Assembly (NCBI GenBank): GCA_937873495.1
Contig: CALMXZ010000005.1
Coordinates: 1-64,000, forward strand
Direction of reading: 5' to 3'
Origin: an uncultured Trueperaceae bacterium
GTDB lineage: Bacteria; Deinococcota; Deinococci; Deinococcales; Trueperaceae
Length of the DNA: 64,000 nucleotides
The stretch's first letter is position 1, and the number at the start of each line of letters is the position of its first letter. A model generated the notes under the pieces. It saw only the letters and a program-made list of their open reading frames with translations, was not told the DNA's origin and did not search any database. Shown here piece after piece: positions 25,103 to 56,660 of the stretch. Position numbers and translations under genes: made by a program.

Positions 25103-25171
25103 GGCACTCACGGCCGCTGGCAGGACGGCTAGCGGCCGGCAATCTCGACGGCGGCCATGCTTGGCCGCGCC

Positions 25172-25191
25172 AGGACGGCTCCGGCCGTCCT
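25172..25191 (+). terminator. Hairpin terminator after rpmF
   Basis: Eight-base perfect arms (25172-25179, 25184-25191) with a TCCG loop are followed by a TTTCGCTT stretch. It probably ends the DUF177-rpmF message before fabH. Confidence 0.6.
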
Positions 25192-25250
25192 TTCGCTTGC
25201 GGCGGCGCGGTCGGCGAACCGGCGCGCCGTCCGACGGAACGTAGGTAGGC

Positions 25251-27178: not shown

Positions 27179-27234
27179 TCGAGCGCGCGCCTCGAGGTCG
27201 TCTTCCTGTAACGTCGTCTTCACAAGGAGGTCTC

Positions 27235-27984
27235 GTGGACCAAGAACGCAAGCGTGTCGCGCTGGTCACAGGCTCGAGCCGCGGGCTCGGCAAGGCCATC
27301 GCCGAGACGTTGGGCCGCCGTGGCTACACCGTGGCGGTGCACTACGTCAGCTCGGCAGGCCCCGCCGAGGCCGTCGCCGACGCGATCCGCGCCATGGGCT
27401 CGGAGGCGGAGGCGTTCGGAGCGGACGTCTCGGACCCGGCCCAGTGCCAGGACCTCGTCAAGCGCGTCTTGGAGCGCTTCGGCGCCCTCGACGTGCTCGT
27501 CAACAACGCCGGCGTGACGCGCGACACCCTCGCGCTGCGCATGAAGGACGAGGACTGGCGCAACGTGCTCGACACGAACCTCTCCTCGGCCTTCTACTTG
27601 GCGCGGGGCGCGCTGCGGGGCATGCTCCGCGCGGGTTACGGACGCGTCGTGAACGTCTCGTCCGTCGTCGGCCTGCGCGGCAACGTGGGCCAGGCCAACT
27701 ACGTCGCGGCCAAGGCGGGCCTCATCGGCCTGACGAAAGCGCTCGCACGCGAGTACGCTGCCAAGGGCGTTACCGTCAACGCGGTGGCCCCTGGCTTCAT
27801 CGAGTCGGACATGACGGCGGCGCTGCCGGCGGACGTCAGGGACGCCTACCTGAAGGAGATCCCGGTCGGGCGCTTCGGCACGCCGCAGGACGTGGCCGAG
27901 GCCGTCGCGTTCCTGGCCGGCCCGGAAGCCGGCTACGTCAACGGCCAGACGCTGGTGGTTGACGGTGGGATGGTCATGCACTAG
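27235..27984 (+). CDS. fabG: 3-oxoacyl-ACP reductase
   Basis: The 249-residue SDR reduces 3-oxoacyl-ACP with NADPH. TGSSRGLG (12-19), NNAG, Ser143, Tyr156 and Lys160 form a full active site, and the C-terminal YVNGQTLVVDGGMVMH is typical of FabG. AAGGAGG precedes the GTG start. Confidence 0.95.
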   Translation: MDQERKRVALVTGSSRGLGKAIAETLGRRGYTVAVHYVSSAGPAEAVADAIRAMGSEAEAFGADVSDPAQCQDLVKRVLERFGALDVLVNNAGVTRDTLALRMKDEDWRNVLDTNLSSAFYLARGALRGMLRAGYGRVVNVSSVVGLRGNVGQANYVAAKAGLIGLTKALAREYAAKGVTVNAVAPGFIESDMTAALPADVRDAYLKEIPVGRFGTPQDVAEAVAFLAGPEAGYVNGQTLVVDGGMVMH

Positions 27985-28049
27985 CATCGCAAAGGCCGCG
28001 CCGCCGGCAAGGGCACTCGCCCACGTCAGCGAAGGCTTCCACCGCGGTG

Positions 28050-28077
28050 TTGGCACGGCGAGAGCCCGTGCTACAGT
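28050..28077 (+). promoter_or_regulatory. Probable promoter of acpP
   Basis: TTGGCA (28050-28055) and TACAGT (28072-28077) are 16 bases apart, about 58 bases before the acpP start. A separate promoter would let the abundant carrier protein exceed its enzymes. Confidence 0.5.
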
Positions 28078-28134
28078 CTCGCAAGATATGCGCTACACGG
28101 GCACGGCACGAGTCGTTGCCAAGGAGGGAAAGTC

Positions 28135-28374
28135 GTGGACGAGCACGAGATACTGGAGAAGATCAAGGACGTGGTCGCTGACAAGCTCGACGCCGACCCA
28201 AGCGATGTCACGGAGGAGTCCCGCTTCATGGACGACCTCGGCGCCGACTCGCTCGATGTCGTCGAGTTGATCATGGGCCTCGAGGACGAATTCGGGGTCG
28301 AGATCTCCGACGAGGAAGCCGAAGGCATCCGCACCGTCGGGGACGCCGTCCGCTTCATCGCAGACAAGCAGTGA
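28135..28374 (+). CDS. acpP: Acyl carrier protein
   Basis: The acidic 79-residue carrier is modified with phosphopantetheine at Ser39 ([10 protein letters not shown]). It carries growing acyl chains. The GTG start follows AAGGAGGG. A nested hairpin follows the gene. Confidence 0.96.
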
Positions 28375-28379
28375 GGACC

Positions 28380-28415
28380 GGCCCCGGCTCGAGCCACAGG
28401 CTCGCTCCCGGGGCC
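28380..28415 (+). terminator. Nested hairpin between acpP and fabF
   Basis: Eight-base arms (28380-28387, 28408-28415) enclose a further 5-base hairpin (28391-28395, 28399-28403). It starts six bases after the acpP stop. Without a U run, it may be a partial terminator or processing site that raises acpP over fabF. Confidence 0.55.
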
Positions 28416-28490
28416 ACCGGCCGCAGCACCGGCGCGGGCAGACTACGCATCACGCCCATTCACGGCTGTAGCCGTTAACTTAGGACGACC

Positions 28491-29720
28491 ATGAGACGAG
28501 TCGTTGTCACCGGTGTCGGGCCCGTAACGCCGATCGGCGTCGGCGCCGCCAAGTTCCTGGCGGCCCAGCACGAGGCCAAGAACGGTATCAGACCCATCAC
28601 CCTGTTCGATGCCAGCGATCTCTCCGTGCGCTTCGCCGGTGAGGTCGACGTCGACATGACCGGCTACCTGGAGCCTAAGGAAGCCAGGCGCCTTGACCGC
28701 TTCGTGCAGTTCGCCCTCATCGGGGCCGACCTCGCGCTCGAGGATTCGGGCCTCACAGCCGAAGAGGTGGCCGGCGAGCACACCGGCACGTGCGTGGGCT
28801 CCGGCATCGGCGGCCTCGCCACGTGGGAGGAGCAGTCCAAGACCCGCTTCGAACGCTCCCCCATGCGTATCAGCCCGTTCTTCATCCCCATGCTCATCGC
28901 CAACATGGCCAGCGGGCACGTCGCCATGCGCTACGGCCTCACGGGCCCGAGTTCGAGCGTCGTGACGGCCTGCGCTACCGGCTCTGGCAACATCGGCGAC
29001 GGCTACAGGATGATCCAGCGCGGCGAAGCCGACATCGTCTTCGCAGGCGGCTCCGAGGCGCCCGTAACGCCCATGGGCATCGGCGGCTTCGCCGTCATGA
29101 AGGCCCTCTCCACCCGCAACGACAGCCCCGAGACGGCCAGCCGGCCGTTCACCGCGAGCCGCGACGGCTTCGTGGCCGGCGAGGGCGCCGGCATCCTCGT
29201 GCTGGAAGAGTACGAGCGCGCCGTGAAGCGCGGCGCCCGCATCTACGCCGAGGTCGTGGGGTACGGCACGAGCGCGGACGCGCATCACATCACCGCGCCG
29301 GCGCCGGGCGGCACGGGAGCCATCGCGGCGATCAAGCGCGCCCTCAAGGACGCCAAGATCACGCCCGACCAGGTCGGCTACATCAACGCGCACGGCACGA
29401 GCACGGAAGCCAACGACCTCAACGAGACGCTCGCCTTCAAGGCCGTCTGGGCAGGCCACGGCCCGGTACCGCCCGTCTCCTCCACCAAGTCGATGACCGG
29501 CCACACGCTCGGGGCGGCCGGCGGCATCGAGGGGATCGCGACGGTGCAGGCCATCCACTACGGCGTCCTGCCGCCCACCCGCAACTACATCGACCCCGAT
29601 CCGGTCCTCGACCTCGACTACATCCCTGAAGGCGCGCGCGAGAAGCGCGTCGACGTCGCCATCTCCACCAACTTCGCGTTCGGCGGGCAGAACGCCTGCC
29701 TCGTGTTCAAGCGCGTCTGA
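28491..29720 (+). CDS. fabF: 3-oxoacyl-ACP synthase II
   Basis: The 409-residue elongating condensing enzyme has Cys161 in VTACATGSG, His301 in NAHGTST and His338 in [13 protein letters not shown], the full Cys-His-His set of KAS I/II. It ends the fatty-acid cluster and faces murJ tail to tail with 34 bases between them. Confidence 0.95.
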
Positions 29721-40263: not shown

Positions 40264-41367
40264 TTACGGCACGACGCGCGAGTTGATGGCCCACCAGTAC
40301 CAGTTCTCACCCTGGAGCCGGCTGAACGCCAGGCGCCCGAGTAGGGCGTCCGTCACGAGGCTCGGGTCCTTGGAGTGGACCATGAGGAGCGAGCCACCGT
40401 TGTGGACGAGCGCGCCGTGCCGGTTCATCGGGCCGCGCAGCCGCGGCTCCATGCGGCCCATCAGCGCGCCGGCGCCGTCCTCGTCTGCCTCCGCGAAGAG
40501 CTGGCCGACGACTGCGTCCAGGTGCCTCGGGTCGGCCTCAAGGTCGAAGAGCCGGCATACGCCGCCCCTCTTGAGGTAGTAGACGTACCAGCCGACCACG
40601 TCCTCGCCGTGCCGCACGAGCCGCGCCCTGAAGTCGCCCTGCTCGACGATCCGCGCCATCTGGCCGAACTGCCAGGCGACGTGGGCCTCGTCGTACCGGG
40701 GCCGGAGGCGCGCGCCACCGAGAAGCTCGGGCGCGTGGCGCGCCAGCGCGGCGGGCGTGAGCGTCTCGGAGCGGTAGCCGGCCGGCGGCCGGCTGGTGAG
40801 GCGCGAGCGCGCCGCGCGGCGCGCGGCCGCGTCGCCGCCCCTGACCACCGGGCCGAGCAGCGGCGCGAGCGCCCGCATGGCGCCGCTCCGGCCCGCGGCC
40901 GCCCCGAGGCCTACGGCTCCAGGCCTGAAGACCTTCACCCAGCGCAGCGACTGCATCTGCGCGACGCTCCCACCGAGCAGCTCCCAGATGCGCTCGAACT
41001 TCACGTGCCCACCGTCGCTGAACGTGAACGCCTGCGGCCCGGCAAGGAACTTGCGCAGCAGGAAGGCCGCCACGGTGGTCGGGGCCTCCGGGTCGACGAC
41101 GGACGGGAACAGCCCGGCCAGCGTCCGCTCCTGACCGTCGACCAGCACCGGCATGGCGGTAACGCCAAGGAAACCGAGGAGCTTGCCGCCCTCCTCCTCG
41201 GCCACCAGCGGCCTCACCTCGGGGTCGGCGCCGGGGTACTCGACGTACATGCGCCGGACCAGCTCGACCAGGCCAGGGTCCGGCACGCGCGTCTTGCCGC
41301 GGAACCAGTACTGCCACAAGGAGGCGACCCCTTGCGCGTCGGTCGGTTCGAACGGGCGGATCCTCAT
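40264..41367 (-). CDS. GNAT/FemAB-like transferase, last gene of the acyl-carrier operon
   Basis: The 367-residue protein begins MRIRPFEPTDAQGVASLWQYWF, the usual first helix of a GNAT domain, with LGFLGVTAMPVLVDGQER and LFPSVVDPEAPTTVAAFLLRKFL as the acetyl-CoA region. A second half (about 210-360) repeats the fold loosely (VVGWYVYYLKRGGVCRLFDL). I do not recognise a named family. The start is 13 bases after the NadE-like stop. In an operon with an acyl carrier and a ligase, it is the best candidate for moving the acyl group from the carrier to an amine. Confidence 0.6.
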   Translation of the reverse strand: MRIRPFEPTDAQGVASLWQYWFRGKTRVPDPGLVELVRRMYVEYPGADPEVRPLVAEEEGGKLLGFLGVTAMPVLVDGQERTLAGLFPSVVDPEAPTTVAAFLLRKFLAGPQAFTFSDGGHVKFERIWELLGGSVAQMQSLRWVKVFRPGAVGLGAAAGRSGAMRALAPLLGPVVRGGDAAARRAARSRLTSRPPAGYRSETLTPAALARHAPELLGGARLRPRYDEAHVAWQFGQMARIVEQGDFRARLVRHGEDVVGWYVYYLKRGGVCRLFDLEADPRHLDAVVGQLFAEADEDGAGALMGRMEPRLRGPMNRHGALVHNGGSLLMVHSKDPSLVTDALLGRLAFSRLQGENWYWWAINSRVVP

Positions 41368-41380
41368 GGCTTCGCTCCCC

Positions 41381-42367
41381 TTACGCCCCCATCTCGCCTT
41401 CGACGACGAGCCGCGGGGCGGCGTGCAGGTAAGCGCTCACGCGGCGCTTCCCGGCGATGTCCTTGAACACGCGCTCGACCTGCTCTGGTGTCAGGCCCAG
41501 GCTGCCGGCGACCTCCCCCGCGTTCACCCCGTGGTCGACGGCGTAGAGGCAGAGGTCCATCTTGTCGTACGGCAGGGAGAAGTAGAACTCCTCCTGGCTC
41601 TGCGGCATGGAGTAGGTGTCGGTGGTAGGCGGGCGCGACCGGATCTCCTCCGGCACGCCGAGGGCCTCGGCCAGCTGGTAGACCTGCGACTTGTACAGGT
41701 GCGCGATCGGCTTCACATCGGCGGCGCCGTCGCCGTTCTTGACGAAGAAGCCCTGGTCGTACTCGAGGCGGTTCGGGGTGCCGAGCACGCAGTAGTTGAG
41801 GCGGTCCGCGTGGTAGTACTCCAGCATCTTGCGCGTGCGCTGCTTGAAGTTCGTGGCCGCCACGACCTGCAGGTAGTCCTCGAGCGGCAGGCGCTCCTTG
41901 AAGGTGCGGCCGTCCGGGGAGAGCGCCACGACCGAGAACAGACGGAAGCTCTCCGACTCCACGACGGACGGCAGGACGATCTTGGCCTTCCAGCCCGGAC
42001 CGAACGAAGGGATGACGCGCTTGAACGCCTCGTCGCGCCTGCGGTAGCAGCCGACGGCGTCGAGGATGGGCGTTATCTCCTCCAGGACGGTCGTTATGCC
42101 GGCGCTCGAGGCCGCTAGGGCGCTGAGCCTCAGCGTGTCTTCCGAGGAGTCGGTCTCGGGCATGAGGACGCCGAGCACGTTGCCCGGGCCGAACGCGCGC
42201 GCGGCCAGCGCCGCCACGACCGTCGAGTCGATGCCGCCGGAGAGGCCGAGCACGCCGCCCTTGCGCCTGAAGGCGCGGACCTCGCGCCGCATGCCGTCGG
42301 TGATGGCCTCGATGGCCGCCTCGGGGTCGGCCAGGTGCAGCACGTGCGGGCCGAAGGCGTCGGTCAC
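41381..42367 (-). CDS. NAD synthase-like ATP pyrophosphatase (NadE family)
   Basis: The 328-residue protein has the PP-loop SGGIDST (43-49) and NadE-type segments GTPNRLEYDQGFFVKNGDGAADVKP (given in part) and LYKSQVYQLAEALGVPEE, with no glutaminase domain. True NadE amidates nicotinate adenine dinucleotide with ammonia. An insert around 105-175 and the C-terminal part (QSQEEFYFSLPYDKMDLCLY) set it apart from standard NadE, and it lies in an operon with an acyl carrier protein (five bases) and an asparagine-synthase-like gene. It may amidate another carboxylate, or be the cell's NadE placed here; context favours the former. Confidence 0.75.
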   Translation of the reverse strand: MTDAFGPHVLHLADPEAAIEAITDGMRREVRAFRRKGGVLGLSGGIDSTVVAALAARAFGPGNVLGVLMPETDSSEDTLRLSALAASSAGITTVLEEITPILDAVGCYRRRDEAFKRVIPSFGPGWKAKIVLPSVVESESFRLFSVVALSPDGRTFKERLPLEDYLQVVAATNFKQRTRKMLEYYHADRLNYCVLGTPNRLEYDQGFFVKNGDGAADVKPIAHLYKSQVYQLAEALGVPEEIRSRPPTTDTYSMPQSQEEFYFSLPYDKMDLCLYAVDHGVNAGEVAGSLGLTPEQVERVFKDIAGKRRVSAYLHAAPRLVVEGEMGA

Positions 42368-42372
42368 GGGCG

Positions 42373-42639
42373 TCAGGCTCCTTGCGCCAGTCGCCGCCCG
42401 ATGTAGGCGACGATGCGCGCCACGCTGTCGAGGTTCTCGGGCAGCGTGTCCTCGTCGGGGATGCTCACGCCGAAGCGCTGCTCGACGAACATGATGAGTT
42501 CGAGCACGCCCATCGAGTCGAGCACGCCGGCCTGGGTGAGCGACTCGTCCGCACCGAGGTCGGCGCCGCCGTTGTCGAGGATGAAGTTGTCCGCGAGGAA
42601 CTGGCGTACGTCGCGGTCGATCGTGGTGAGGTCTGGCAT
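42373..42639 (-). CDS. Dedicated acyl carrier protein
   Basis: The 88-residue carrier has Ser42 in GVLDSMGVLELIMF, the phosphopantetheine site, and NLDSVARIVAYIGRRL as the last helix. It differs clearly from AcpP at 28135-28374. It lies five bases upstream of the NadE-like gene and 86 downstream of the ligase gene, so it is most probably loaded by that ligase. Confidence 0.88.
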   Translation of the reverse strand: MPDLTTIDRDVRQFLADNFILDNGGADLGADESLTQAGVLDSMGVLELIMFVEQRFGVSIPDEDTLPENLDSVARIVAYIGRRLAQGA

Positions 42640-42725
42640 CTTCTCTTGGTCGCTCCTTGTCGTTCCTAATGGCCGGCTCGCACGGCCTCGTTGGTCGTGA
42701 AGCGGGGGCGCCATGGAGAGGGCGG

Positions 42726-44303
42726 TCAGCCCTGCTCCACCAGGCTCTTCTTACGCACCTTACCGGTGGCCGTCTTGGGGAGGTCCTGCACGAAGCGCAC
42801 GTCGCGTGGGACCATGAAGCTCTCGAGGCGCGCCATGGCCTCGCGCTTGAACGCCTGCTCCGTGTAGGTCGCTCCGGGGTCGAGGACGACGAAGGCTCGC
42901 ACGGCCTGGCCGAGCAGCTCGTCCGGCACGCCGATAACGGCCGCCTCGCGCACGCCGGGGATGGTCGCCAATGCGTTCTCGACCTCGACGGGGCTGACCT
43001 TCTCGCCGCGGCTCTTGATGATGTCGTCGCTGCGGCCCATGAAGTAGAGGAAGCCGTCCTCGTCGGTGCGGAACCAGTCGTGGGTGCAGAGCACGCGCTC
43101 GCCGGGGTACTTGCCGGGCTTGAGCATGTGCTCCGTCTCTGCCGGCAGGTTCCAGTAGCCGAGCATGACGTGCGGTCCGCGCACGTAGAGGGTGCCGGTG
43201 ACGCCGGGGCCGACGGGTCGGCCGTCCTCGCCCACCAGGTACGTCTCGGTGCCGGGGATGGCCTTGCCGACGGAGAGCGGCTTGGAGAGCACGAGCTCGG
43301 GCTCGAGGTAGCATACGCGCTTGCACTCGGTGAGCCCGTACATCTTGTAGACGAGGGCTCCCGGGCTCATCTCGAGCAGGCCAGGCACGTACTCGTCCGG
43401 CAGGTGCGCGGCCGTGTTCGTGTAGCGCCGCACGCTCGGCATGGCTAGCGGCGCGTTGCGGTGCAGCGACAGGAGCGTGGCGAACACCGTCGGCACGCCG
43501 GGGAACACCGTCACGCCCTCGTCGACCACGCGCTTCACGATGGCGGCCGGGAAGGCGAACGTGCGCTCGAGCACCAGCGTGGCACCCAAGTGCACGGCCA
43601 TGAGGGCCTGGTAGAGCCCGTAGTCGAAGGCGAGCGGCAGCAGGTTCAGGATGCGGTCAGACGCGTCGAGGCGCAGGTACTCGACGAGGCTCCCCTGCGC
43701 GAAGACCATGTTCTGGTGGCTGAGCATGACGCCCTTGGGGTTGCCAGTGCTGCCGGACGTGTAGACGAGCGCGGCGAGGTCGAGGGGGATGGTGCCCGGC
43801 GCGCTCAGCGCCGTGCTGGTCCAGTCCGCCAAGCGGCGGACGGCGAACCGGTCGTCGCGCGGGGCGCCTCCGCCGTCCGCGGCGTCGCCGGCGAGCACCA
43901 ACGCGAGGAGCCCAGGGAGGGCCGTCGCCGGGTCGGCCAGCAGGCCGCTCACCGCGCGGGCCAGGCGCCCTTCGCTCAGCACGGCGGCCGCGCCGGAATC
44001 GGCCAGCATGTAGTGGAGCTTGTCCTCCTTGGTCTGCGGGTTGACGACCATGAAGGCGGCGCCGGCGTACAGGGCGCCGTAGATGCCGGCGACCGTGTCG
44101 ACGGAGTTCTCGAGGAAGATGGCGACCCGATCGCCCCGGCGCACGCCGGCCTCTTGCAGGAGGCTGGCGAAGCGCGACGCCCGATCGTGGAGTTCGGCGT
44201 AGGTGACGCGCTCGTCCGCGGTGACGATCGCCGTCTTCTCCGCATGCCGGGCCGCGCTGATGGTCAAGCTGTCTTGTAGCAGCCTTGGGTACCTGGGTTG
44301 CAT
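42726..44303 (-). CDS. AMP-dependent acyl ligase
   Basis: The 525-residue adenylating enzyme has the P-loop YTSGSTGNPKGV (181-192), MYGLTECKR, a DWFRTDEDGFLYFMGRSDD segment with the conserved aspartate, and the C-terminal lysine in PKTATGKVRKKSL. It activates a carboxylic acid and would load it on the adjacent carrier protein or CoA. Sequence flavour is close to ligases of polysaccharide-associated acyl clusters. Starts at 44303 or 44327 are both possible; the inner one has the usual family N-terminus. Confidence 0.88.
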   Translation of the reverse strand: MQPRYPRLLQDSLTISAARHAEKTAIVTADERVTYAELHDRASRFASLLQEAGVRRGDRVAIFLENSVDTVAGIYGALYAGAAFMVVNPQTKEDKLHYMLADSGAAAVLSEGRLARAVSGLLADPATALPGLLALVLAGDAADGGGAPRDDRFAVRRLADWTSTALSAPGTIPLDLAALVYTSGSTGNPKGVMLSHQNMVFAQGSLVEYLRLDASDRILNLLPLAFDYGLYQALMAVHLGATLVLERTFAFPAAIVKRVVDEGVTVFPGVPTVFATLLSLHRNAPLAMPSVRRYTNTAAHLPDEYVPGLLEMSPGALVYKMYGLTECKRVCYLEPELVLSKPLSVGKAIPGTETYLVGEDGRPVGPGVTGTLYVRGPHVMLGYWNLPAETEHMLKPGKYPGERVLCTHDWFRTDEDGFLYFMGRSDDIIKSRGEKVSPVEVENALATIPGVREAAVIGVPDELLGQAVRAFVVLDPGATYTEQAFKREAMARLESFMVPRDVRFVQDLPKTATGKVRKKSLVEQG

Positions 44304-44383
44304 CGAAAGTAGCCTTCCCGTCCGCACGCGTTCACAACGCGCGCCGGACCACTGCCCGACCGAAGGAGTCTACCCACCGCGCC

Positions 44384-46393
44384 TCACGGCGCCCTTACAC
44401 CGCCCTCGACCTCGACCCGCGTCCCTGCCACGACGCGGGTCGGCACCGCCGGCCGCGCGAGCCGGGGGTCGCTGACCAGCGTCTCGTCCAGGAGCATCGT
44501 GGAGAGGACGCCGACGAGCCCCATCTCGTCGCTCTCGCTGAAACCGACCTCGGCGTAGCGGCGCGCCTTCTCGGCGAGCTTGGTCACGTGGGGGACGTTG
44601 AAGAGGCCCGTGGCGGCCAGCCGCTCCGGCGCGAGGAGCTCGTCGACGTAGGCCGGCGCGCCCTCACCGAAGAACGCGCGCAGGATGGGCGCCCGGTAGG
44701 GGCGCTTCGGGCGCTTGTTGATCTCGTCGGGCAGCACCCCGGCGAGCGACTTCCGCAGCAGGTACTTCTCCTGCAGGTCGCGCAGCCTGAGGCGCTCGGG
44801 CAGACCGGCAGCGAACTCGGCCACGTGCACGTCGAGGAACGGGAAGCGCCCCTCCACCGAGTTGGCCGCGAGCATGCGATCGCCCTGGGAGTGCAGGAGG
44901 AACCCTGTCAGGAACGTGGTTATCTCGAGGTACTGCGCCTGGCCGAGCGGGCCCATGGCCGCGTACTCGGTCGGCAACCGCCCGATGACGCGCCCCTCCG
45001 GGTCGCCGACGGCCTCTCTGGCGGCCAGGGTCTCCTGCCCGAGGAACCGCAGGTTGCGCGCCGTCGTCCTGAAGCGCGGGCGGTGGCTGTAGAGGGGATC
45101 GTCCAGGTCGAGCATGCCGGCCTTGAAGAACTCGGCCATGAAGCCGCCGCCCTGCTGCAGGTCGCGCGAGAGGTAGGGGTAGAGCTTGCCGAGGAGCCGC
45201 GGGCGGAGCTTGGAGCTCGGAAGGCGCGCCCAGAAGCGCCGCACCATGGCCTCCTGGAAGAGGTTGTACCCCCCGAGGAGCTCGTCGGAGCCCTCGCCGG
45301 TCAGCACCACCTTGAAACCGGAGTCGCGCACCAGGCGCGAGAGGAGGATGAGGGGGGCCGGCGCCGTGCGGAGCATGGGCTTCTCGGCGAAGCGGACGAC
45401 CTCGGGGAAAGCGGCGGCCACGTCGGCGTCGGAGACCTTGATGGTCCGCAGGTTCACGCCGAGCTCGTCAGCCATGCGCCGCTGGAAGGCCGATTCGTCG
45501 AAGCGCTGGTCCTCGAACGACACGCTGAACGCTTCCAACGGACCGCGCGTGTGGCGCCGCGCCAGGGCGGTCGTCGCGCTCGAATCGAGGCCGCCGCTCA
45601 GGTAGACGCCGACGGGCACGTCGGCGCGCAGGCGGATGCGCGTGGCGTCGTCGAGGAGCGCGAGCAGCTCCTCCTGGAGCTCGCCGACGGACCCCCGCCT
45701 CACGCCCTCGCGCGGGCCGAACCGGATGTCCCACCAGCGCACCGGGGCCTCCGGCCCGGCCGGACCGACCCACTGGTAGTGACCGGCCGGCAACTCCCGG
45801 ATGCCGGGGAAGGCGCTGCGGTCGGGTTGGACGGCCCAGATGGTGAACGTCTCGACCAGCGCGAACGGGTCGATGCGCCGCTCCGCTCGCGGGTGCCTGA
45901 GGAGCGCCTTCGCCTCCGAGGCGAACAGGAGGTCGCCTCCGAACTCGGCCGTGAAGAGGGGGCGGATGCCGAAGCGGTCGCGGGCGATCAGCAGCCGCTT
46001 GGTCACGTGATCGAAGACGGCGAGGGCGAACTCGCCGTTCAGCCTGTCGAGGAAGCCGACCCCCCACTCCTCGAAGGCGTGCGCGATGACCTCCGTGTCC
46101 GAGTGCGTGCGAAACACGTGCCCGAGGCCCTGGAGCTCCGCCATGAGTTCCGGGTAGTTGTAGATCTCGCCGTTCTGCATGACCCAGTAGCGGCCGTCCT
46201 CGTTGGGGAGGGGTTGATCGCCGCCCGCGAGGTCGATGATGGCGAGGCGCGTGCAGACCATCCCGAAGGGGCCGTCGAGGTAGAGGCCGACGCCGTCAGG
46301 GCCGCGGTGGGCGAGCTCGCCCGCCATCGTAAGTAGGAGGTCGCGGGGCGCGTTCGCGCCAGACGTCGCGTAAAGGCCGGCAATTCCGCACAT
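44384..46393 (-). CDS. Asparagine synthase-like glutamine amidotransferase (first copy)
   Basis: The 669-residue protein starts MCGIAGLY with Cys2 as glutaminase nucleophile, has NGEIYNY and the glutamine-binding RGPDG, and the PP-loop SGGLDSS (266-272) of the synthetase domain. Ammonia from glutamine is used to amidate an adenylated carboxylate. It is the first gene of the leftward operon with the acyl ligase, carrier protein, NadE-like and GNAT-like genes. In that setting the substrate is likely a sugar or acyl carboxylate rather than free aspartate; this is inference. A second copy is at 54729-56660. Confidence 0.88.
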   Translation of the reverse strand: MCGIAGLYATSGANAPRDLLLTMAGELAHRGPDGVGLYLDGPFGMVCTRLAIIDLAGGDQPLPNEDGRYWVMQNGEIYNYPELMAELQGLGHVFRTHSDTEVIAHAFEEWGVGFLDRLNGEFALAVFDHVTKRLLIARDRFGIRPLFTAEFGGDLLFASEAKALLRHPRAERRIDPFALVETFTIWAVQPDRSAFPGIRELPAGHYQWVGPAGPEAPVRWWDIRFGPREGVRRGSVGELQEELLALLDDATRIRLRADVPVGVYLSGGLDSSATTALARRHTRGPLEAFSVSFEDQRFDESAFQRRMADELGVNLRTIKVSDADVAAAFPEVVRFAEKPMLRTAPAPLILLSRLVRDSGFKVVLTGEGSDELLGGYNLFQEAMVRRFWARLPSSKLRPRLLGKLYPYLSRDLQQGGGFMAEFFKAGMLDLDDPLYSHRPRFRTTARNLRFLGQETLAAREAVGDPEGRVIGRLPTEYAAMGPLGQAQYLEITTFLTGFLLHSQGDRMLAANSVEGRFPFLDVHVAEFAAGLPERLRLRDLQEKYLLRKSLAGVLPDEINKRPKRPYRAPILRAFFGEGAPAYVDELLAPERLAATGLFNVPHVTKLAEKARRYAEVGFSESDEMGLVGVLSTMLLDETLVSDPRLARPAVPTRVVAGTRVEVEGGVRAP

Positions 46394-46566: not shown

Positions 46567-46660
46567 GCACGCGAGGTGAGTGGGCAAGGCCGGCACGTAG
46601 CGCGATTCCATGGTGGGCGTGCCGCGAGCACGGGGCTACCAGTGAGGTAAGGGTGTCGTG

Positions 46661-48784
46661 ATGTCCAGTTGGAAGCACGTTCCGAAGCGAACCGCCACGA
46701 TCAAGCGAAAGGCACGGCCGCTCTTCGTCGGCTTGGTCCTGCTCCTCGGCAGCGTATGGCTCGCGGCCTGCGGGGGCAACACGACGCCGCCGAGCGTCGT
46801 CAAGGTGGAGATAGAGCAGCCCGACCAGACGTTGATGGTCGGCGCCACCGTGAACCTCACGGCCAAGGTGACGGTCCTCGGCGGCGCGTCGACGGCGGTG
46901 ACCTGGAGCACGTCGGCCTCCGACGTGGCCAGCGTCTCCGCCGCCGGCCTCGTTACCGCCCAGGCGCCCGGCACCGCCACCATCACGGCGACCAGCGTCG
47001 GCAAGCCGACCAGGACCGACACGGTCTCGGTGACGGTGATAGCGGACGACGACGAGCCCCCGACGATCGTGTCGTTCACCGCCACCCCCGCCACCATCGA
47101 GTCCGGCGAGTCCTCCACCCTGGCATGGCAGGTGACCGGCTCGACCGCCGGCATCGCCATCACGGCCGGCGACGCCACCGTCCAGGACGGGCTGGAAGCC
47201 ACGGGAGACCTCGTGGTCACGCCCGCCGCGACCACCGAGTACACCCTCACCGTCACGCCCGAGGGCGACGGTGAGCCGGTGGTGGCCACCGTCACCGTCA
47301 CCGTGACGGTCGTGCCCGACCAACCGGCCATCTCGAGCTTCACGGGCACGGTCGCGCCCGGCAGCCAGGCAGCCCTGAGCTGGGCGGCGGTCAACGCCAC
47401 CAGCCTCGAGCTGTTCGCCGTCAACCCGTCCGACGCCGAGGACGTCCTCTCCCTCGGCACCTACCTTGGCACCGATACCGGCGCCACGGTCGCGCTCCCC
47501 GACAGCGCCCACCAGGCCTTCCGCCTCGACGCGACCGGCCCCGGCGGGGAGGCCTCCGCGCCGCTCGCCCCGTTGGCGAACGTCGTCCTCAACGAGAGCG
47601 ACTACGAGGTCTACTACCTCGTCGGTGGCGGTTGGGCCGAGCCCCCCATCCCGGGTTCGTTCAGGTACGTGCTCGAGGCCGCGACCCCCGGCTCGGTCAT
47701 CGGCTTCGCCTCGGACGTCCAGGAGATCGTCGTCTACGGGGTCGACCTCTTCCCCCTCGACCCGGACCACGTCGTCGACTCGCACGTCATCATCCGCACC
47801 GACGTGACCATCAGCGGGCCCGTTGGTGCGCCGGTCACCCTGCGCGGCCAGTCCGCTTGGCAGCCGGGCGACCCCGGCGAGGCCTACACGTACGGCTCGC
47901 GCGTCGTCTACGTGCCGCAGGCCGTCACGGCCACGCTCGAGAACCTGGTGATCACGGGTGGCACCTTCATCTACTTCGGTTCCGGCATCCACAACGCCGG
48001 CACCCTCACCGTGCGCAACTCCGTCATCACCGACAACCGCGCGTTCGGCTCCGGCGGCGGCATCTACAACGTCCTCGGCGCCACGCTCACGCTCGAGAAC
48101 AGCACGATCTCCGACAACCAGGCCGTCACCCTTGACGAGGAGATCGACAAGGAGTGGCACATACGCGACAGTGCCGCGGCCGTCACCTTCCCAGGCATCA
48201 ACGGCTGGGGCGGCGGCCTCCAGAACGAGGGCACCGCGACGCTCATAGACACCGTCGTCGAGAACAACCGCTCCCGGCAGTCCGGCGGCGGCATCTACAA
48301 CGGCGGCGCCATGACGATCTCCGGCAACTCGAACATCACCGGCAACAGCGCCGATCGCGTGGCCGACTACACGGTCCAGGACCCGAGCGACTTCAGCGCG
48401 GGCGGCGGCATCTCCAACGTCGGCACGCTCATCATGACCGGCGGCGCCATCACGCAGAACTTCGCGGTCGACCAAGGCGCGGGTCTCTACCACTTCCAGA
48501 ACGCCATCACGACGCTCACCGACGTCACCATCACCGACAACGCGGCCGGCCTACCGTCGGCGGTACCACCCATCGTTGGTTACGGCGGCGGCATCATGCA
48601 GCACTACTACGACGGCGAGGAGGACCACCTGACCCTCACGGGCGGCGTCCTGGCTGGCAACACGCCTCAAAACATCCTCACGAACCCCAACGGCCCCAGA
48701 CCGCTGGGCGGAGCGGCCGCCGGCACCGTAGACGAGGCCGCCAGGCCCCTCGGGCTGCGCATAGAAGGCTTCAAGCTCCGCTAG
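46661..48784 (+). CDS. Secreted lipoprotein with Ig-like (Big_2) domains and a right-handed beta helix
   Basis: The 707-residue protein has a signal peptide ending in LAAC with lipid-acceptor Cys37. Residues about 47-127 form a Big_2-type domain (VGATVNLTAKVTVLGG, VTWSTSASDVASVS), followed by two more Ig-like stretches to about 305. From about 330 to 690 there are parallel beta-helix coils with repeated GGGIYN and N-x-IT-x-N patterns, as in polymorphic outer-membrane or pectin-lyase-fold proteins. No catalytic set is recognised. It is exported and probably binds or modifies polysaccharide. A GTG lies one codon upstream of the ATG used. Confidence 0.75.
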   Translation: MSSWKHVPKRTATIKRKARPLFVGLVLLLGSVWLAACGGNTTPPSVVKVEIEQPDQTLMVGATVNLTAKVTVLGGASTAVTWSTSASDVASVSAAGLVTAQAPGTATITATSVGKPTRTDTVSVTVIADDDEPPTIVSFTATPATIESGESSTLAWQVTGSTAGIAITAGDATVQDGLEATGDLVVTPAATTEYTLTVTPEGDGEPVVATVTVTVTVVPDQPAISSFTGTVAPGSQAALSWAAVNATSLELFAVNPSDAEDVLSLGTYLGTDTGATVALPDSAHQAFRLDATGPGGEASAPLAPLANVVLNESDYEVYYLVGGGWAEPPIPGSFRYVLEAATPGSVIGFASDVQEIVVYGVDLFPLDPDHVVDSHVIIRTDVTISGPVGAPVTLRGQSAWQPGDPGEAYTYGSRVVYVPQAVTATLENLVITGGTFIYFGSGIHNAGTLTVRNSVITDNRAFGSGGGIYNVLGATLTLENSTISDNQAVTLDEEIDKEWHIRDSAAAVTFPGINGWGGGLQNEGTATLIDTVVENNRSRQSGGGIYNGGAMTISGNSNITGNSADRVADYTVQDPSDFSAGGGISNVGTLIMTGGAITQNFAVDQGAGLYHFQNAITTLTDVTITDNAAGLPSAVPPIVGYGGGIMQHYYDGEEDHLTLTGGVLAGNTPQNILTNPNGPRPLGGAAAGTVDEAARPLGLRIEGFKLR

Positions 48785-49061: not shown

Positions 49062-51002
49062 GTGAACCGCGGACGGTGGCGTACTGAAGTGCTGATCGTA
49101 ACGTTCCTCATCGCTTTCCTGGCCGCGTGCGGCCAGAACGTCGCCCAGGTCCCTCAGCCTCCGGAAGAGGTCGAGTGGTCGGCGGCGGCGATCGGCTACG
49201 AGGACGTGCAACAAGCGAACCTCGGGCAGCTCGAACCCGCGGCGGCGAGCCTCATCAAGGTCAGTGGCTCCGGAACGGACATCTGGGACGCGCGCGACGA
49301 GTTCTACTACGTCTATACGCCGTTGAACGGCGATGGCTCGCTCTCCGTGCGCCTGCTCGACTTCGCCGCCGCGCACGCCTGGAGCAAGGCGGGGGTGATG
49401 CTGCGCGACGGGCTGGCGCCCGACGCGCGCAACGTGCTCATCCACATCAGCGGGCAGAACGGCTCCGTGCTGCAGGCCCGCCTCCAGACAGGGGCCGCAA
49501 CCACCAACAGTGCGGGCAGCGACCCGAACGTGCCCGTCGGCGGCTGGATGCGCCTCACCCGCACCGGCGACCAGATCATCGGCGAGCTCTCGAGCGACGG
49601 CTCCAGCTGGACCGAGCTGGGCAGCTACACCGTCTCCATGGGGCAGACCGCGCTGATCGGCTTGGCCGTCACCGCGCATAGCCCAGGCCAGGTCGCCACC
49701 GCGTACTTCACGGGGCTCGACCTACGCTTCGGCACGCAACCGCGGCCGAACCCACCGAAGCACCCCACGCCGCAACAGCCGGACCCAGACCCAGACCCCA
49801 AACCCGACCCCGAGCCGGAGCCGGAGCCGGTCCCCCCGGGCCGGCCGACCACGCCGGAGCCGAACTACGTCGGCACGTGGGTGTGCGGCACCGAGGCCCT
49901 CACGCCTCGCTACCAGCCGACTTACTACGTGTCCACCAGCGGGAACGACTCCAACGACGGGCGCTCCACCGACCGGGCGTTCCGCACCCTCCAACGGGCC
50001 GCCAACGTCGTCTCCGCCGGCGACGTCGTGTGGGTGAGGGGCGGCACGTACTCCTCCAACGTCTCGTTCCAGCGTTCCGGCACGTCGGCCAACCCGATCG
50101 TCTTCGAGTCGTACCCCGGCGAATGCGCCATCCTCGACGGCTCCGGCCAGCAGGCGTACCAGAACGTGCGGTTCGAGGGCGCCAACTACAACGTCTTCAG
50201 GAACTTCGTGGTGCGCAACAACCCGGCCCAGGGCATCCAGCTCGTCAACGCGAACGACAACCTGATCGCGCACGTGCGCACCCACAACAACGGCCTGAGC
50301 GGCATCCAGAACCTCTCGGGCGACCGCAACCGCTTCTCCTACTTCATCACCCACGACAACTCCGACGGCAGCAACGGCGACGCCGACGGCATCGGCCTAT
50401 CGTCCGGCCGCGACCTGCGCATAGACCACTGCGTGGCTTACCGCAACTCCGACGACGGCGTCGACACGTGGCTGTCGGTCAACACGACCATCGAGCGGTG
50501 CATCAGCTTCAAGAACGGCGTGCAGGGCGGTGACGGCAACGGCTTCAAGCTGGGCGGACGCAGCCAGGTGGTCAACACCGTCATCCGCTACAGCATCTCG
50601 TTCGACAACGTGGCCGAAGGGTTCAACTACAACTCCGGCCGCAACGTCACGCTGGAGCACAACACGTCGTACGACAACAACGTCTACGGCTTCATCGTCG
50701 CCAACGGCCAGTTGCGCAACAACCTCGCCTACGGCGACCTACGGCGCGGCTGGGAGGACGACGGCGGCAACCAGGTCCAGACGAACTCCTGGGACCTGGG
50801 GATCGGTAACCCGTTGTTCCTCAGCACCGACCCCAGTTCGGCCTCGTTCCTCGCCCCCTCCGCCTTGAGCCCGGTGATAGGCAGGGGCACCAACATCGGC
50901 TTGCCGTTCAGCGGCTCGGCGCCTGACCTGGGCGCCATCCCGCACGACGAGACCATCGAGTCGTTCCTAGGGATACCCCTGCGGGAGATCCTCGCCTACT
51001 GA
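49062..51002 (+). CDS. Lipoprotein with PL9-like polysaccharide lyase domain
   Basis: The 646-residue protein has a signal peptide with lipobox LAAC (Cys23), a beta-sandwich domain (about 38-225; IWDARDEFYYVYTPL, WSKAGVMLRDGL) resembling DUF1349/laminin-G-like modules, a Pro/Asp/Glu linker (about 238-262), and a right-handed beta helix from about 287 (YYVSTSGNDSNDG). NSDDGVDTW (462-470) and GNGFKLGG (492-499) match the calcium site and catalytic lysine region of family PL9 pectate lyases, with Lys497 as candidate base. It probably cleaves an acidic, uronate-containing polymer at the cell surface. It overlaps the convergent glycosyltransferase by seven bases. The GTG start has only a weak ribosome-binding site. 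Confidence 0.8.
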   Translation: MNRGRWRTEVLIVTFLIAFLAACGQNVAQVPQPPEEVEWSAAAIGYEDVQQANLGQLEPAAASLIKVSGSGTDIWDARDEFYYVYTPLNGDGSLSVRLLDFAAAHAWSKAGVMLRDGLAPDARNVLIHISGQNGSVLQARLQTGAATTNSAGSDPNVPVGGWMRLTRTGDQIIGELSSDGSSWTELGSYTVSMGQTALIGLAVTAHSPGQVATAYFTGLDLRFGTQPRPNPPKHPTPQQPDPDPDPKPDPEPEPEPVPPGRPTTPEPNYVGTWVCGTEALTPRYQPTYYVSTSGNDSNDGRSTDRAFRTLQRAANVVSAGDVVWVRGGTYSSNVSFQRSGTSANPIVFESYPGECAILDGSGQQAYQNVRFEGANYNVFRNFVVRNNPAQGIQLVNANDNLIAHVRTHNNGLSGIQNLSGDRNRFSYFITHDNSDGSNGDADGIGLSSGRDLRIDHCVAYRNSDDGVDTWLSVNTTIERCISFKNGVQGGDGNGFKLGGRSQVVNTVIRYSISFDNVAEGFNYNSGRNVTLEHNTSYDNNVYGFIVANGQLRNNLAYGDLRRGWEDDGGNQVQTNSWDLGIGNPLFLSTDPSSASFLAPSALSPVIGRGTNIGLPFSGSAPDLGAIPHDETIESFLGIPLREILAY

Positions 51003-52280: not shown

Positions 52281-54314
52281 TCACCTCGCGCGAGCCATGA
52301 CGCCGGCGCCCACCGCCGCGGCAGCAGCCGCGACCGTCGGGTTCTCGGAGTCGATGAGCTTGGCGAGGGTGATGTTCAGTTGGAGGGCGCCCAGGTCCGG
52401 GGCGGCGCCGGCGTAGTCGAAGCCGACGTCAACGCCGGCGTCGACGGCCGGGCTGTCGGACCGCAAGGTGAGGAAGTCCGGGCTGTTCCTGTCCGTGCTC
52501 ATGATGCGCGCGTCGGAGATGCCGAGGTCCCAGCTGTTGGAGCGGCTGTCGGCGCCGGAGAGGACGTTGTTGCGGCCGCTCACGGAGAGGTTGTTGCGCA
52601 GCGTCACCGAGCTGCCGACGTCGAAGTTGCCGCTCGCGTTGTTGTAGGCGGTGTTGTTGAGGAGCGTGATGTTGCGCCCGGTGTTCTGGGAGAAACCCAT
52701 CGCGCGGTTGTCGAAGGCGACGTTGAAGACGGCCACCGTGTAGTTCGTCTCGCTGTTGCCGCCGAGCTTGAAGCCGTTGCCGTTGCCGTTGGCCCCGCGC
52801 CCGTTGTCGTAGCTCACCGAGTACTCGATGCGGGTGTTGGTCGAGCGCCACGCGTCGATGCCGTCGTCGGAGTTGTAGTAGCTGACGACGTGACTGATGA
52901 CGTTGGAGTCGCCGGCCGAGATGCCGATGCCGTCCGCGTCCTCGCCGACCTTGCCGTTCGAGTTGACCGTGTCCATGTTGTCGTAGGTGACGAGGTACTG
53001 GTACACGTTGCGGTTGCCGCTGTAGTTCTGGATCCCGCTGCCGTTGTTGCCGTGCGTCACGAGGCCGTGGAAGAGGTTGTCGCTGGCGTTGCGCACGAAG
53101 ACGCCCTGCTGGGGGCCGTTGCGGACCTCGAAGTTGACGAAGTGGTTGTAGGAGACGCCGTCGACCCAGACCCGGTCCTGGCTGGAGCCGCGCGCCAGGC
53201 CGGAGCCGTCGAAGATCGCCGTCTCGCCAGGATACGAGGCCCAGACGATCGGCTTCGAGGAGGTACCGGAGGTCTTGAAGCTCACGTTGATCGGGTAGAC
53301 GCCGCCGCGGATGTAGACGACGTCACCGGGCGCCACCATGGAGGCGGCCCTGCCGACGGTGCGCAGCGGGGAGTCCGCGCTGCGGCCCGAGTTGCTGTCG
53401 CTGCCGTTGGTGGCGACGTAGAGCGTCGCGGCGGGAAGGTCGTACGACGGGCTGCCCGTCCCAGGGCCACCGGGGCGCGTAGGTTGGGTCGGCTGGGTGG
53501 GCTGCGTCGGATCGGTCGGCTCGGTCGGATCGGTAGGTTGCGTGGGCTCCTCGGGCTGCGTCGGCGTGGTCGGCTCGCCTGGCTTGACCTTGACCGGCCC
53601 GCTCCGGTGAACGAGGTCCGTGAACCGCGCCCGGGCGGCGGCCCCGCGAGAGTGCGCCGTCACGGCCAGACCGATGAGGGCCTCCTCCCCGAACGAGACC
53701 TCGTACCTGCCGAGTTCGCGCCAGTCCACCCCGTCGCTCGAGAGCTCGCCGACGACGGTATTGCCGCTGCGCGTCAGGCGCACCCAGCCGCCCACCGTCA
53801 TCTGGGTGTCGTGCCCGGCGCTGTTGATGGTGGTGCCTCCGGCCACGGAGCGGGTCTGCAAGACCGACCCGTTGGCATTGCTGATGTGCAGCAGGACGTT
53901 GCGAGCGCTCGGGTCGAGCCCGTCGCGCAGCATGACGCCCGCCTTGGCCCACGGGTCGGTGGCGTCGAAGTCGGCGACGCGCACGGAGAGCGATCCGTCG
54001 CCCGTCATACGCGTGTAGACGTAGTAGAACTCGTCGCGCTCGTCCCAGATGTCGACGCCTGACCCAGTGACGACGAAGTCCGCCTGCGCCGCGGTCGGCG
54101 CCAAGGAGTCGTCTTCGTAGCCGACCGAGCTCCACTCCCAGCTGGCCTCCTCGGGTTCGGGCTCAGGCGGGGTCCTACCGTTGTCGGGCGTCTGCAACTG
54201 ACCGCACGCCCCGAGCATGATCACGCCTACCAAGACGATGAGTGCCTTGAGGTAACGACCGGCCGCCTTCCCGACGGCAGCGTCGCCCCCCTGTACCTTG
54301 TTGCTTGCTCGCAT
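52281..54314 (-). CDS. Second lipoprotein with PL9-like polysaccharide lyase domain
   Basis: This 677-residue paralogue of the gene at 49062-51002 has the same order: lipobox LGAC (Cys37), beta-sandwich domain (about 60-235), a Pro-Thr-Gln repeat linker (about 248-281) and a beta helix from about 297. NSDDGIDAW (481-489) and GNGFKLGG (512-519) carry the PL9-type calcium site and candidate catalytic Lys517. The linker differs in type (PTQ/PTD repeats instead of Asp/Glu-Pro). The last 20 residues are Ala-rich, which is odd for this fold. The leader upstream folds into competing hairpins. The start choice (54314 or a TTG at 54323) is uncertain. Confidence 0.8.
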   Translation of the reverse strand: MRASNKVQGGDAAVGKAAGRYLKALIVLVGVIMLGACGQLQTPDNGRTPPEPEPEEASWEWSSVGYEDDSLAPTAAQADFVVTGSGVDIWDERDEFYYVYTRMTGDGSLSVRVADFDATDPWAKAGVMLRDGLDPSARNVLLHISNANGSVLQTRSVAGGTTINSAGHDTQMTVGGWVRLTRSGNTVVGELSSDGVDWRELGRYEVSFGEEALIGLAVTAHSRGAAARARFTDLVHRSGPVKVKPGEPTTPTQPEEPTQPTDPTEPTDPTQPTQPTQPTRPGGPGTGSPSYDLPAATLYVATNGSDSNSGRSADSPLRTVGRAASMVAPGDVVYIRGGVYPINVSFKTSGTSSKPIVWASYPGETAIFDGSGLARGSSQDRVWVDGVSYNHFVNFEVRNGPQQGVFVRNASDNLFHGLVTHGNNGSGIQNYSGNRNVYQYLVTYDNMDTVNSNGKVGEDADGIGISAGDSNVISHVVSYYNSDDGIDAWRSTNTRIEYSVSYDNGRGANGNGNGFKLGGNSETNYTVAVFNVAFDNRAMGFSQNTGRNITLLNNTAYNNASGNFDVGSSVTLRNNLSVSGRNNVLSGADSRSNSWDLGISDARIMSTDRNSPDFLTLRSDSPAVDAGVDVGFDYAGAAPDLGALQLNITLAKLIDSENPTVAAAAAAVGAGVMARAR
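53470..53570 (-). repeat. Pro-Thr-rich linker repeat in the second lyase gene
   Basis: Short tandem repeats encode alternating PTQP/PTDP/PTEP units joining the beta-sandwich domain to the beta helix. Such stretches vary in length by slippage. Confidence 0.6.
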
Positions 54315-54317
54315 CCG

Positions 54318-54370
54318 AACCAACTTTCTTGGTTGGATGCAACCTGACTGCGTATCCGGCCGGTTGCATC
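54318..54370 (-). promoter_or_regulatory. Leader RNA with mutually exclusive hairpins
   Basis: In the leftward transcript, 9-base arms (54370-54362 with 54344-54336, 17-base loop) form one hairpin and a 6-bp hairpin (54334-54329 with 54323-54318, loop GAAAG) ends three bases before the start codon. A third pairing, GGTTG-CATC-CAACC, uses one arm of each and excludes both. This looks like a switch controlling access to the start. Confidence 0.5.
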
Positions 54371-54728: not shown

Positions 54729-56660
54729 ATGTGTGGCATCACGGGTTTTCTCGACACCAAGGGCTTCACTGAGGAGGCCGCGACCGCAGTGATAGCGCGC
54801 ATGGCGAACGCCGTCGCTCACCGCGGACCGGACGACGAGGGCCGGTGGCTCGACGCGCGCCACGGGGTGGCGCTCGGGCACAAGCGGCTCTCGATCGTCG
54901 ACCTCTCCCCCGCCGGCCATCAACCGATGACCTCGGCCGGCGGTCGCTTCGTCATGGTGTTCAACGGCGAGATCTACAACCACGACGAGCTGCGCGCCGC
55001 CCTGGCGCACCCCCCCGCCTGGCGCGGCCACTCCGATACGGAGTCGCTCCTGGCTGGCTTCGAGGCGTTCGGGATCGAGGAGACGTTCAGGCGCTCGGTC
55101 GGGATGTTCGGGGCGGCCGTCTGGGACCGCGAGAAGGCGTGCCTGACGCTCGTGCGCGACCGCCTCGGCGAGAAGCCCCTCTACTACGGCTGGCAAGGCG
55201 CCACCCTCCTGTTCGGCTCGGAGCTGAGCTCGCTAGTCGTGCATCCGGCCTTCCTGGGCGAGGTGGACCAGGGTGCGCTGTCCGCCTTCCTCAAGCTCGG
55301 CTACGTTCCGGCGCCGTACTCCATCTACCGAGGCATCAGTAAGCTCCCGCCGGGGACGAGCGTCACGTTCCGCTCTGGGGCCGTGACGGAGCCCGAGCCG
55401 GTCGCCTACTGGTCGCTCGTCGAGGCGGCGGCGCGGGGCGCCAAGGAGCCGTTCGCGGGCTCCGACGAGGAGGCCGTCGACGAGCTGGAGCGCCTGCTCT
55501 CGCGCTCCGTCAAGGGCCAACTCATGTCGGACGTGCCCCTCGGCGCGTTCCTGTCCGGCGGGGTCGACTCGAGCACCATCGTCGCCCTCATGCAGCGCCT
55601 GGGAAGCGAGCCCGTCAAGACGTTCACCATCGGCTTCGCGGAGAGCGGGTTCGACGAGTCGCAGGCCGCGCGCGACGTGGCGAGGCACCTGGGTACGGAC
55701 CACTCCGAACTCCTCGTGACGCCCGCCGAAGCGCAGGGGGTCATACCGCAGCTCGCCTCCATCTACGGCGAGCCGTTCGGCGACTCCTCCGCCATCCCGA
55801 CCACCATCGTGGCCGGGCTGGCGCGACGCGACGTGACCGTCGCGCTCTCCGGCGACGGCGGCGACGAGCTCTTCGCCGGCTACGGCCGTTACCATCGCAC
55901 GACCCGCGTGTGGTCGCGGGCAGCGTCCATGCCGCAGGCCACGCGGCGGATGGCCACCCTGGCGCTCCGGACGTTGCCTGCCAACGCCATCCAGAACGTC
56001 CTCATGCGCTTCGAGGTCGGCCAGTTCCCCCACCTCTTCTCGGAGCGCGTTCGCGGCCTGCAGGCGGTCTTCGGCTCCAAGGACGTCGAGGCCCTCTACG
56101 ACGTACGCGTGTCCAACTGGCCGGACCCCGCCGCCATCCTCCAGAGCGGGGCGGCTGCGTCGCGCTCGTTCGCCGCGGCCACCTCCATCGGGCGCGCGGA
56201 CCCGACGGAGCGGATGATGGCGTTCGACACGCTCGCCTACCTACCGGACGACGTCCTGGTGAAGGTCGACCGCGCCGCCATGTCCCACTCGCTCGAGACG
56301 CGTGTGCCGCTCCTCGACCACCGCGTTGTCGAGTTCGCCTGGTCTTTGCCCCACGGCTTCAAGGTCAGGGACGGCGAGGAGAAGTGGCTGCTGAAGCGAC
56401 TCCTCCACAAGCTGGTGCCGCGCGAGCTCGTCGACCGGCCGAAGCAGGGCTTCGGGGTGCCCATCCACGAATGGCTGCGCGGGCCTCTACGGGGCTGGGC
56501 AGAGGACCTGCTGTCCGTGGAGGCGCTCGAGGGCTCCGGCCCGTTCCGGGCGGCCCCCGTGCGCGAGCTGTGGCGCCAGCACTTGGCTGGCAAGGCCGAC
56601 TGGCAGTACCGCCTCTGGCCGGTGTTGATGTACCAGCAGTGGGCGCGCGAGCGGCGCTGA
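54729..56660 (+). CDS. Asparagine synthase-like glutamine amidotransferase (second copy)
   Basis: The 643-residue protein has Cys2 in MCGITGF, HRGPDDEG, NGEIYNHDEL and the PP-loop SGGVDSS (276-282), then ALSGDGGDELFAGYGRY. It closely follows the AsnB pattern common in capsule and exopolysaccharide loci. It stands alone, flanked by a divergent lyase and a convergent glycosyltransferase. Possible roles are amidation of a uronic acid in the polymer, or plain asparagine synthesis. The two copies differ at many positions and are not a recent duplication. Confidence 0.88.
   Translation: MCGITGFLDTKGFTEEAATAVIARMANAVAHRGPDDEGRWLDARHGVALGHKRLSIVDLSPAGHQPMTSAGGRFVMVFNGEIYNHDELRAALAHPPAWRGHSDTESLLAGFEAFGIEETFRRSVGMFGAAVWDREKACLTLVRDRLGEKPLYYGWQGATLLFGSELSSLVVHPAFLGEVDQGALSAFLKLGYVPAPYSIYRGISKLPPGTSVTFRSGAVTEPEPVAYWSLVEAAARGAKEPFAGSDEEAVDELERLLSRSVKGQLMSDVPLGAFLSGGVDSSTIVALMQRLGSEPVKTFTIGFAESGFDESQAARDVARHLGTDHSELLVTPAEAQGVIPQLASIYGEPFGDSSAIPTTIVAGLARRDVTVALSGDGGDELFAGYGRYHRTTRVWSRAASMPQATRRMATLALRTLPANAIQNVLMRFEVGQFPHLFSERVRGLQAVFGSKDVEALYDVRVSNWPDPAAILQSGAAASRSFAAATSIGRADPTERMMAFDTLAYLPDDVLVKVDRAAMSHSLETRVPLLDHRVVEFAWSLPHGFKVRDGEEKWLLKRLLHKLVPRELVDRPKQGFGVPIHEWLRGPLRGWAEDLLSVEALEGSGPFRAAPVRELWRQHLAGKADWQYRLWPVLMYQQWARERR

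Follow-up and report, generated by a model that had tools for sequence, protein, structure and literature searches.

A NadE-like protein encoded with an acyl carrier protein, an AMP-forming ligase and an AsnB-like enzyme in a Trueperaceae polysaccharide locus and in other phyla

Closest described systems and layout of the locus

The N-acetylglutaminylglutamine amide (NAGGN) pathway consists of the AsnO amidotransferase and a GNAT/ATP-grasp protein. In D-alanylation (DltA/DltC) and in the butirosin pair BtrI/BtrJ, a private carrier protein receives a small acid from a stand-alone ligase. The locus described here, from an uncultured Trueperaceae bacterium, resembles both. As in the NAGGN pathway, an AsnB-type amidotransferase and a GNAT-type enzyme would yield an amidated N-acyl product, but the AsnB-like protein stays below the TIGR03104 cut-off (316.2 versus 570.1 bits), and the cassette adds an acyl carrier protein (ACP), a ligase, and a NadE. 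As with DltA/DltC and BtrI/BtrJ, an acid would be held on a private carrier for transfer to another molecule, but the cassette ACP scores under the DltC cut-off (19.7 versus 52.35 bits) and two extra amide synthetases are present.

Two further systems come close. The AsnB-like protein and the ligase fall below the cut-offs of the XrtA amidotransferase TIGR03108 (414.3 versus 816.9 bits) and the XrtA-associated acyl-CoA ligase TIGR03098 (404.6 versus 592.35 bits), and exosortase TIGR02602 has no match in the genome under study (96.7% complete). The NadE-like protein passes the curated cut-off of NF002048/PRK00876 (481 versus 313 bits), a subfamily named NAD(+) synthase in NCBIfam, and has the PP-loop fold and adenylation residues in common with it. 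It differs from such a synthase in its own clade, its insert, and its clade-specific invariant pocket residues, in being encoded with an ACP, a ligase, and an AsnB, and in that other carrier genomes have another NadE.

In the open-access literature we found no description of this gene set, although one may exist elsewhere, and the open-access papers searched contain no mention of NadE with the XrtA system. The exosortase paper does not mention the cassette enzymes (PMC1569441). In floc-forming bacteria, a large exopolysaccharide cluster is reported to contain two asparagine synthetase genes (PMC9012009), and asnB/asnH to be required for floc formation (PMC7662799).

The window, that is, the whole 64,000-nucleotide stretch of DNA analysed, carries the five cassette genes on the reverse strand (Table 1). 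The original prediction read them leftward with gaps of 80, 86, 5, and 13 bases, which is exact when the ligase starts at 44303 (MQPRYP; the frame is open from 44327, and this start fits the 80-base gap) and the ACP at 42639 (MPDLTT). The carrier serine is residue 42, as predicted, within LDSMG (codon 42514-42516). The proposed exopolysaccharide setting is also borne out: around the cassette lie genes for a UDP-sugar dehydrogenase, a DegT aminotransferase, a sugar transferase, a 4,6-dehydratase, epimerases, glycosyltransferases, a Wzx-type flippase, and beta-helix proteins. PADLOC defence families gave no match.

Table 1. Cassette features in the window
Feature	Position	Strand	Size and basis
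AsnB-like glutamine amidotransferase / amide synthetase	44384..46393	-	669 aa; TIGR01536, PF00733, PF13537
AMP-forming acyl/aminoacyl ligase (ANL superfamily)	42726..44303	-	PF00501 + PF13193
Acyl carrier protein	42373..42639	-	PF00550, 29.3 bits
NadE-like ammonia-dependent amide synthetase (putative), NF002048/PRK00876 branch	41381..42367	-	328 aa; PF02540
NadE-like insert span, residues 107-168	41864..42049	-	comparison with standard NadE
Double-GNAT acyltransferase-like protein (fifth gene)	40264..41367	-	367 aa; fold match, no Pfam model

Beta-helix surface proteins adjoin the cassette at 46658-48784, 49062-51002, and 52281-54323, and also occur in a related locus (L043:8523-15343); the related genome G003 has several diverged copies. 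A second AsnB-like gene of the same polysaccharide locus (54729-56660) lacks the signature motifs of the cassette. At 25157-29720, 11-15 kb away from the cassette, there is a gene cluster for fatty-acid synthesis (acyltransferase, ketoacyl reductase, and ketoacyl synthase).

The catalytic equipment of the core enzymes is conserved. The AsnB-like protein exceeds the cut-off of the broad asparagine synthase model TIGR01536 (465.4 versus 267.1 bits), and Cys2, SGGLDSS, Glu367, and Lys543 are kept in 97-100% of 72 cassette homologues, except that the Leu and the last Ser of SGGLDSS are less strict. By position, we take Glu367 and Lys543 to be Glu348 and Lys449 of E. coli AsnB; because these equivalents and Cys2 are retained, the enzyme likely forms amides in a glutamine-dependent reaction. 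In the predicted substrate pocket of the ligase, Arg337 and Met329 are invariant in all 76 aligned cassette ligases. Both presumably correspond, by mapping to PheA, to positions that line the substrate pocket of adenylation domains, and their invariance suggests a substrate with a second acidic group. The position of Asp235, where domains for amino acids bind the alpha-amino group, varies between D, G, C, and V, so strict alpha-amino-acid specificity is unsupported. A DS[LMIVF]-type carrier motif is present in 38 of 40 cassette ACP open reading frames; an AcpS-type phosphopantetheinyl transferase is encoded in 15 of 80 loci and is frequent in actinobacterial cassettes.

Conservation and genomic context of the gene set

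With the NadE alignment as query, at least 491 relatives were confirmed among 84,980 species genomes. We retained the 80 loci whose matches to the window's NadE-like protein scored best; they span Deinococcota, Proteobacteria, Actinobacteria, Planctomycetes, and other phyla, and many are from metagenome bins. Among these best 80 of at least 491, AsnB lies within 10 kb of the NadE-like gene in 73, the ligase in 72, and the ACP in 69. All three occur together in 41 of the 47 full 20-kb loci, whereas none of 20 control loci around the standard NadE of cassette-carrying genomes has AsnB, ligase, or ACP. The gene set is thus far beyond chance. Within the same family, every locus long enough to show the set contains AsnB, ligase, ACP, and NadE. 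The genes therefore remain together in relatives, both in this family and in other phyla, and the unit, far from being private to this locus, is spread over many phyla. The same set occurs in more than 20 gene orders and strand arrangements; because order varies so greatly, this argues for selection on the set over recent common descent of one block. Gene fusions, a sign of direct contact, are absent from the cassette loci.

Plasmid records hold 116 further relatives, mostly from Sinorhizobium, Azospirillum, and Ensifer. Several of these plasmids have the compact order GNAT-asnB-ACP-ligase-nadE, in which the GNAT is a hypothetical protein matching in size and place. On a conjugative plasmid of Mesorhizobium sp. 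NBSH29 (L132), the cassette stands alone near a TniB/Mu-type transposase and AbiE, surroundings that suggest cassette mobility. A contig labelled Opitutales (L048), whose NadE is 74% identical, shares its sediment set of origin with a Trueperaceae bin (L049) and is likely a misbinned Trueperaceae contig.

The fifth gene behaves differently from the core. Its product has no sequence match in Pfam, NCBIfam, or PDB, but its AlphaFold model (pLDDT 88.2) has a double GNAT fold near Eis-type acetyltransferases and N-myristoyltransferase, in agreement with the GNAT-like label first given to it. Double-GNAT homologues occur in 17 of the 80 loci, and in all same-family loci long enough to show the gene except that of one close relative (L040). 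A fixed five-gene set was rejected, since the double GNAT is absent from most lineages; of the five-gene operon originally proposed, the four-gene core (AsnB-like, ligase, ACP, and NadE-like) stands and the fixed fifth gene does not.

Other proteins appear beside the core instead. Of the 47 full loci, 44 encode a member of at least one among five transferase-type families, compared with 0 of 20 controls; these families are the double GNAT of the window, a different GNAT in planctomycetes, FemAB in exosortase loci, a GDSL/SGNH-like family, and a hexapeptide acyltransferase. The double GNAT never shares a locus with the other four; for GNAT and SGNH, a hypergeometric count uncorrected for phylogeny gives P ~1e-4. 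The fifth slot is exchangeable between lineages. The GDSL/SGNH-like family (L055:3037-3921, alignment A4) is found in 23 of 80 loci, among actinobacteria, betaproteobacteria, and planctomycetes; a Pfam lipase model recognises only 4 of 14 members, and a sequence-profile search of PDB returned no match.

The surroundings of the cassette also vary. Polysaccharide markers accompany 26 of the 47 full loci and 1 of the 20 controls; the other 21 full loci have no such marker within 10 kb. Exosortase, EpsI, FemAB, deacetylase, and chain-length genes surround several of the cassettes. Many Rhizobiales carry the same five genes between unrelated housekeeping genes, with aconitase, enolase, sarcosine oxidase, or an MFS transporter as neighbours and no polysaccharide genes nearby. 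Because these cassettes often stand alone, the module is self-contained and its acceptor may differ between lineages; given the marker-free loci and the housekeeping neighbours, the acceptor may be soluble, and what is made is not necessarily a polysaccharide group in every case. Decoration of a polysaccharide, as originally suggested, is plausible here and in exosortase loci but need not hold everywhere.

A separate NadE branch

The AlphaFold model of the NadE-like protein (pLDDT 91.5) finds its best PDB matches among NH3-dependent NAD synthetases, the first being 2e18 (TM 0.85 by target). SGGxDS, N173, R177, R179, T197, N199, E202, D213, and K226 are conserved in cassette and standard NadE alike. 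The inserts said to be absent from standard NadE are confirmed: residues 107-112 and 126-168 are missing in at least 80% of 33 standard sequences. The insert, of about 49 residues, is common to the cassette clade, and Tyr108 and Lys129 within its span are invariant in 44 cassette NadE. Many pocket residues are specific to this clade, and those of the PP-loop and adenylation are retained.

We built a tree of 79 rows, including 34 standard NadE, some of them from cassette-carrying genomes and some from Deinococcota. The 44 cassette NadE form one clade (98/93) inside a branch of length 2.59 (100/99), in a tree that carries the program's long-branch warning. Thus, in the phylogeny proposed as a check, the protein falls in a separate long-branch clade and does not group with housekeeping NadE. 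A Phycisphaerales paralogue (L149 / L154:9522-10496) with the same insert is 43% identical, lies outside any cassette, and is sister to the cassette clade; the L149 genome has three NadE types.

The search for a second, standard nadE in the same genome gave one half of what was to refute the original prediction, the other half being a grouping with housekeeping NadE. The NadE-like protein is the only NadE there, and the other PF02540 matches are GMP synthase and the second AsnB; taken alone, this would favour a housekeeping role. Outside the family, a second, standard NadE is present in all 21 cassette-bearing genomes tested (rhizobia, actinobacteria, Geothrix, Phycisphaerales, Manganitrophus, Desulfatitalea, and others). 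Within it, several members 95-98% complete, one of them in the same genus (G004, 96%), lack NadE of either kind; they have only short, weak matches below 28 bits, and the equivalent match in the genome under study is GMP synthase. This suggests that the family does not need NadE. NAPRT/NAMPT (PF04095), PnuC (PF04973), and NadC (PF01729) were not found in the genome under study (G000) and its relatives (G001, G003-G005, G010-G012, and G021), most of which have no standard NadE, and the nicotinamide riboside kinase profile PF13521 gave weak matches only.

Proposed function and alternatives

Our analysis establishes which genes make up the set and that they are conserved across phyla, that the cassette NadE form a clade of their own, that catalytic motifs are intact, and that the transferase slot is exchangeable; every substrate, the order of steps, and the acceptor we infer. 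We consider it reasonably probable that the cassette builds an amidated acyl or aminoacyl group on its carrier protein and passes it to an acceptor, here likely a surface polysaccharide. The ligase would adenylate a small acid, which probably bears a second acidic group, and load it on the phosphopantetheine of ACP Ser42. The AsnB-like enzyme, with ammonia from glutamine, and the NadE-like enzyme, with free ammonia or ammonia from its AsnB partner, would each form an amide, via an acyl-adenylate, at a carboxylate that belongs to the acid, to the acceptor, or to an intermediate. Last, the double-GNAT protein would transfer the completed group from the carrier onto an amine. In this genome, the most likely acceptor is an amino sugar in the surface polysaccharide that the neighbouring genes make. 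Of the original reading, an amide/acyl-carrier set that stays together, with a NadE branch that is not housekeeping, survives; a fixed five-gene unit does not. We give even chances to the broader view that this is a widespread, undescribed module in which a NadE paralogue was recruited out of NAD synthesis to form carrier-protein amides; bacteria of many phyla would then have an amidated acyl group in common, which different transferases direct to different surface polymers or small molecules.

The same enzymes could instead make a free small molecule, for instance an amino acid or dipeptide that is N-acylated and amidated and acts as an osmolyte or signal in the manner of NAGGN, with the nearby polysaccharide genes coincidental or merely co-regulated. 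The stand-alone cassettes of many Rhizobiales and the relationship of the AsnB to the NAGGN amidotransferase, albeit below cut-off, speak for this, but polysaccharide/exosortase markers are strongly enriched around the cassettes and the accessory proteins, of SGNH and FemAB type, suggest the envelope; we regard a free product as doubtful. The cassette might also belong to the exosortase (XrtA/PEP-CTERM) polysaccharide pathway, as a subtype that lost its exosortase in this genome. TIGR03108 and TIGR03098 are indeed the nearest specific families and several cassettes lie inside exosortase loci, but both proteins score far below these cut-offs, as they do in a cassette within an exosortase locus (L107), and the genome encodes no exosortase, which makes such a derivation extremely unlikely.

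That the NadE-like protein is a plain cellular NAD synthase, placed in a polysaccharide operon by chance, we judge very unlikely. Its status as the sole NadE, its subfamily name, and the many catalytic residues in common with standard NadE count in favour, but against it stand the separate long-branch clade, the additional NadE in 21 of 21 outside genomes, the near-complete relatives without any NadE, and the linkage to AsnB, ligase, and ACP in all sampled lineages. Under the carrier-protein reading, the NadE-like protein probably makes no NAD, although it may have a double role in this genome because no other NadE is encoded there.

In hundreds of genomes the NadE-like protein carries the label NAD(+) synthase, and metabolic models are probably misled by it. 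From the cassette one would expect a surface chemical group or metabolite common to soil, marine, and plant-associated bacteria, including hosts of Sinorhizobium and Mesorhizobium plasmids. If true, this would clearly exemplify the recruitment of an NAD enzyme to a different pathway.
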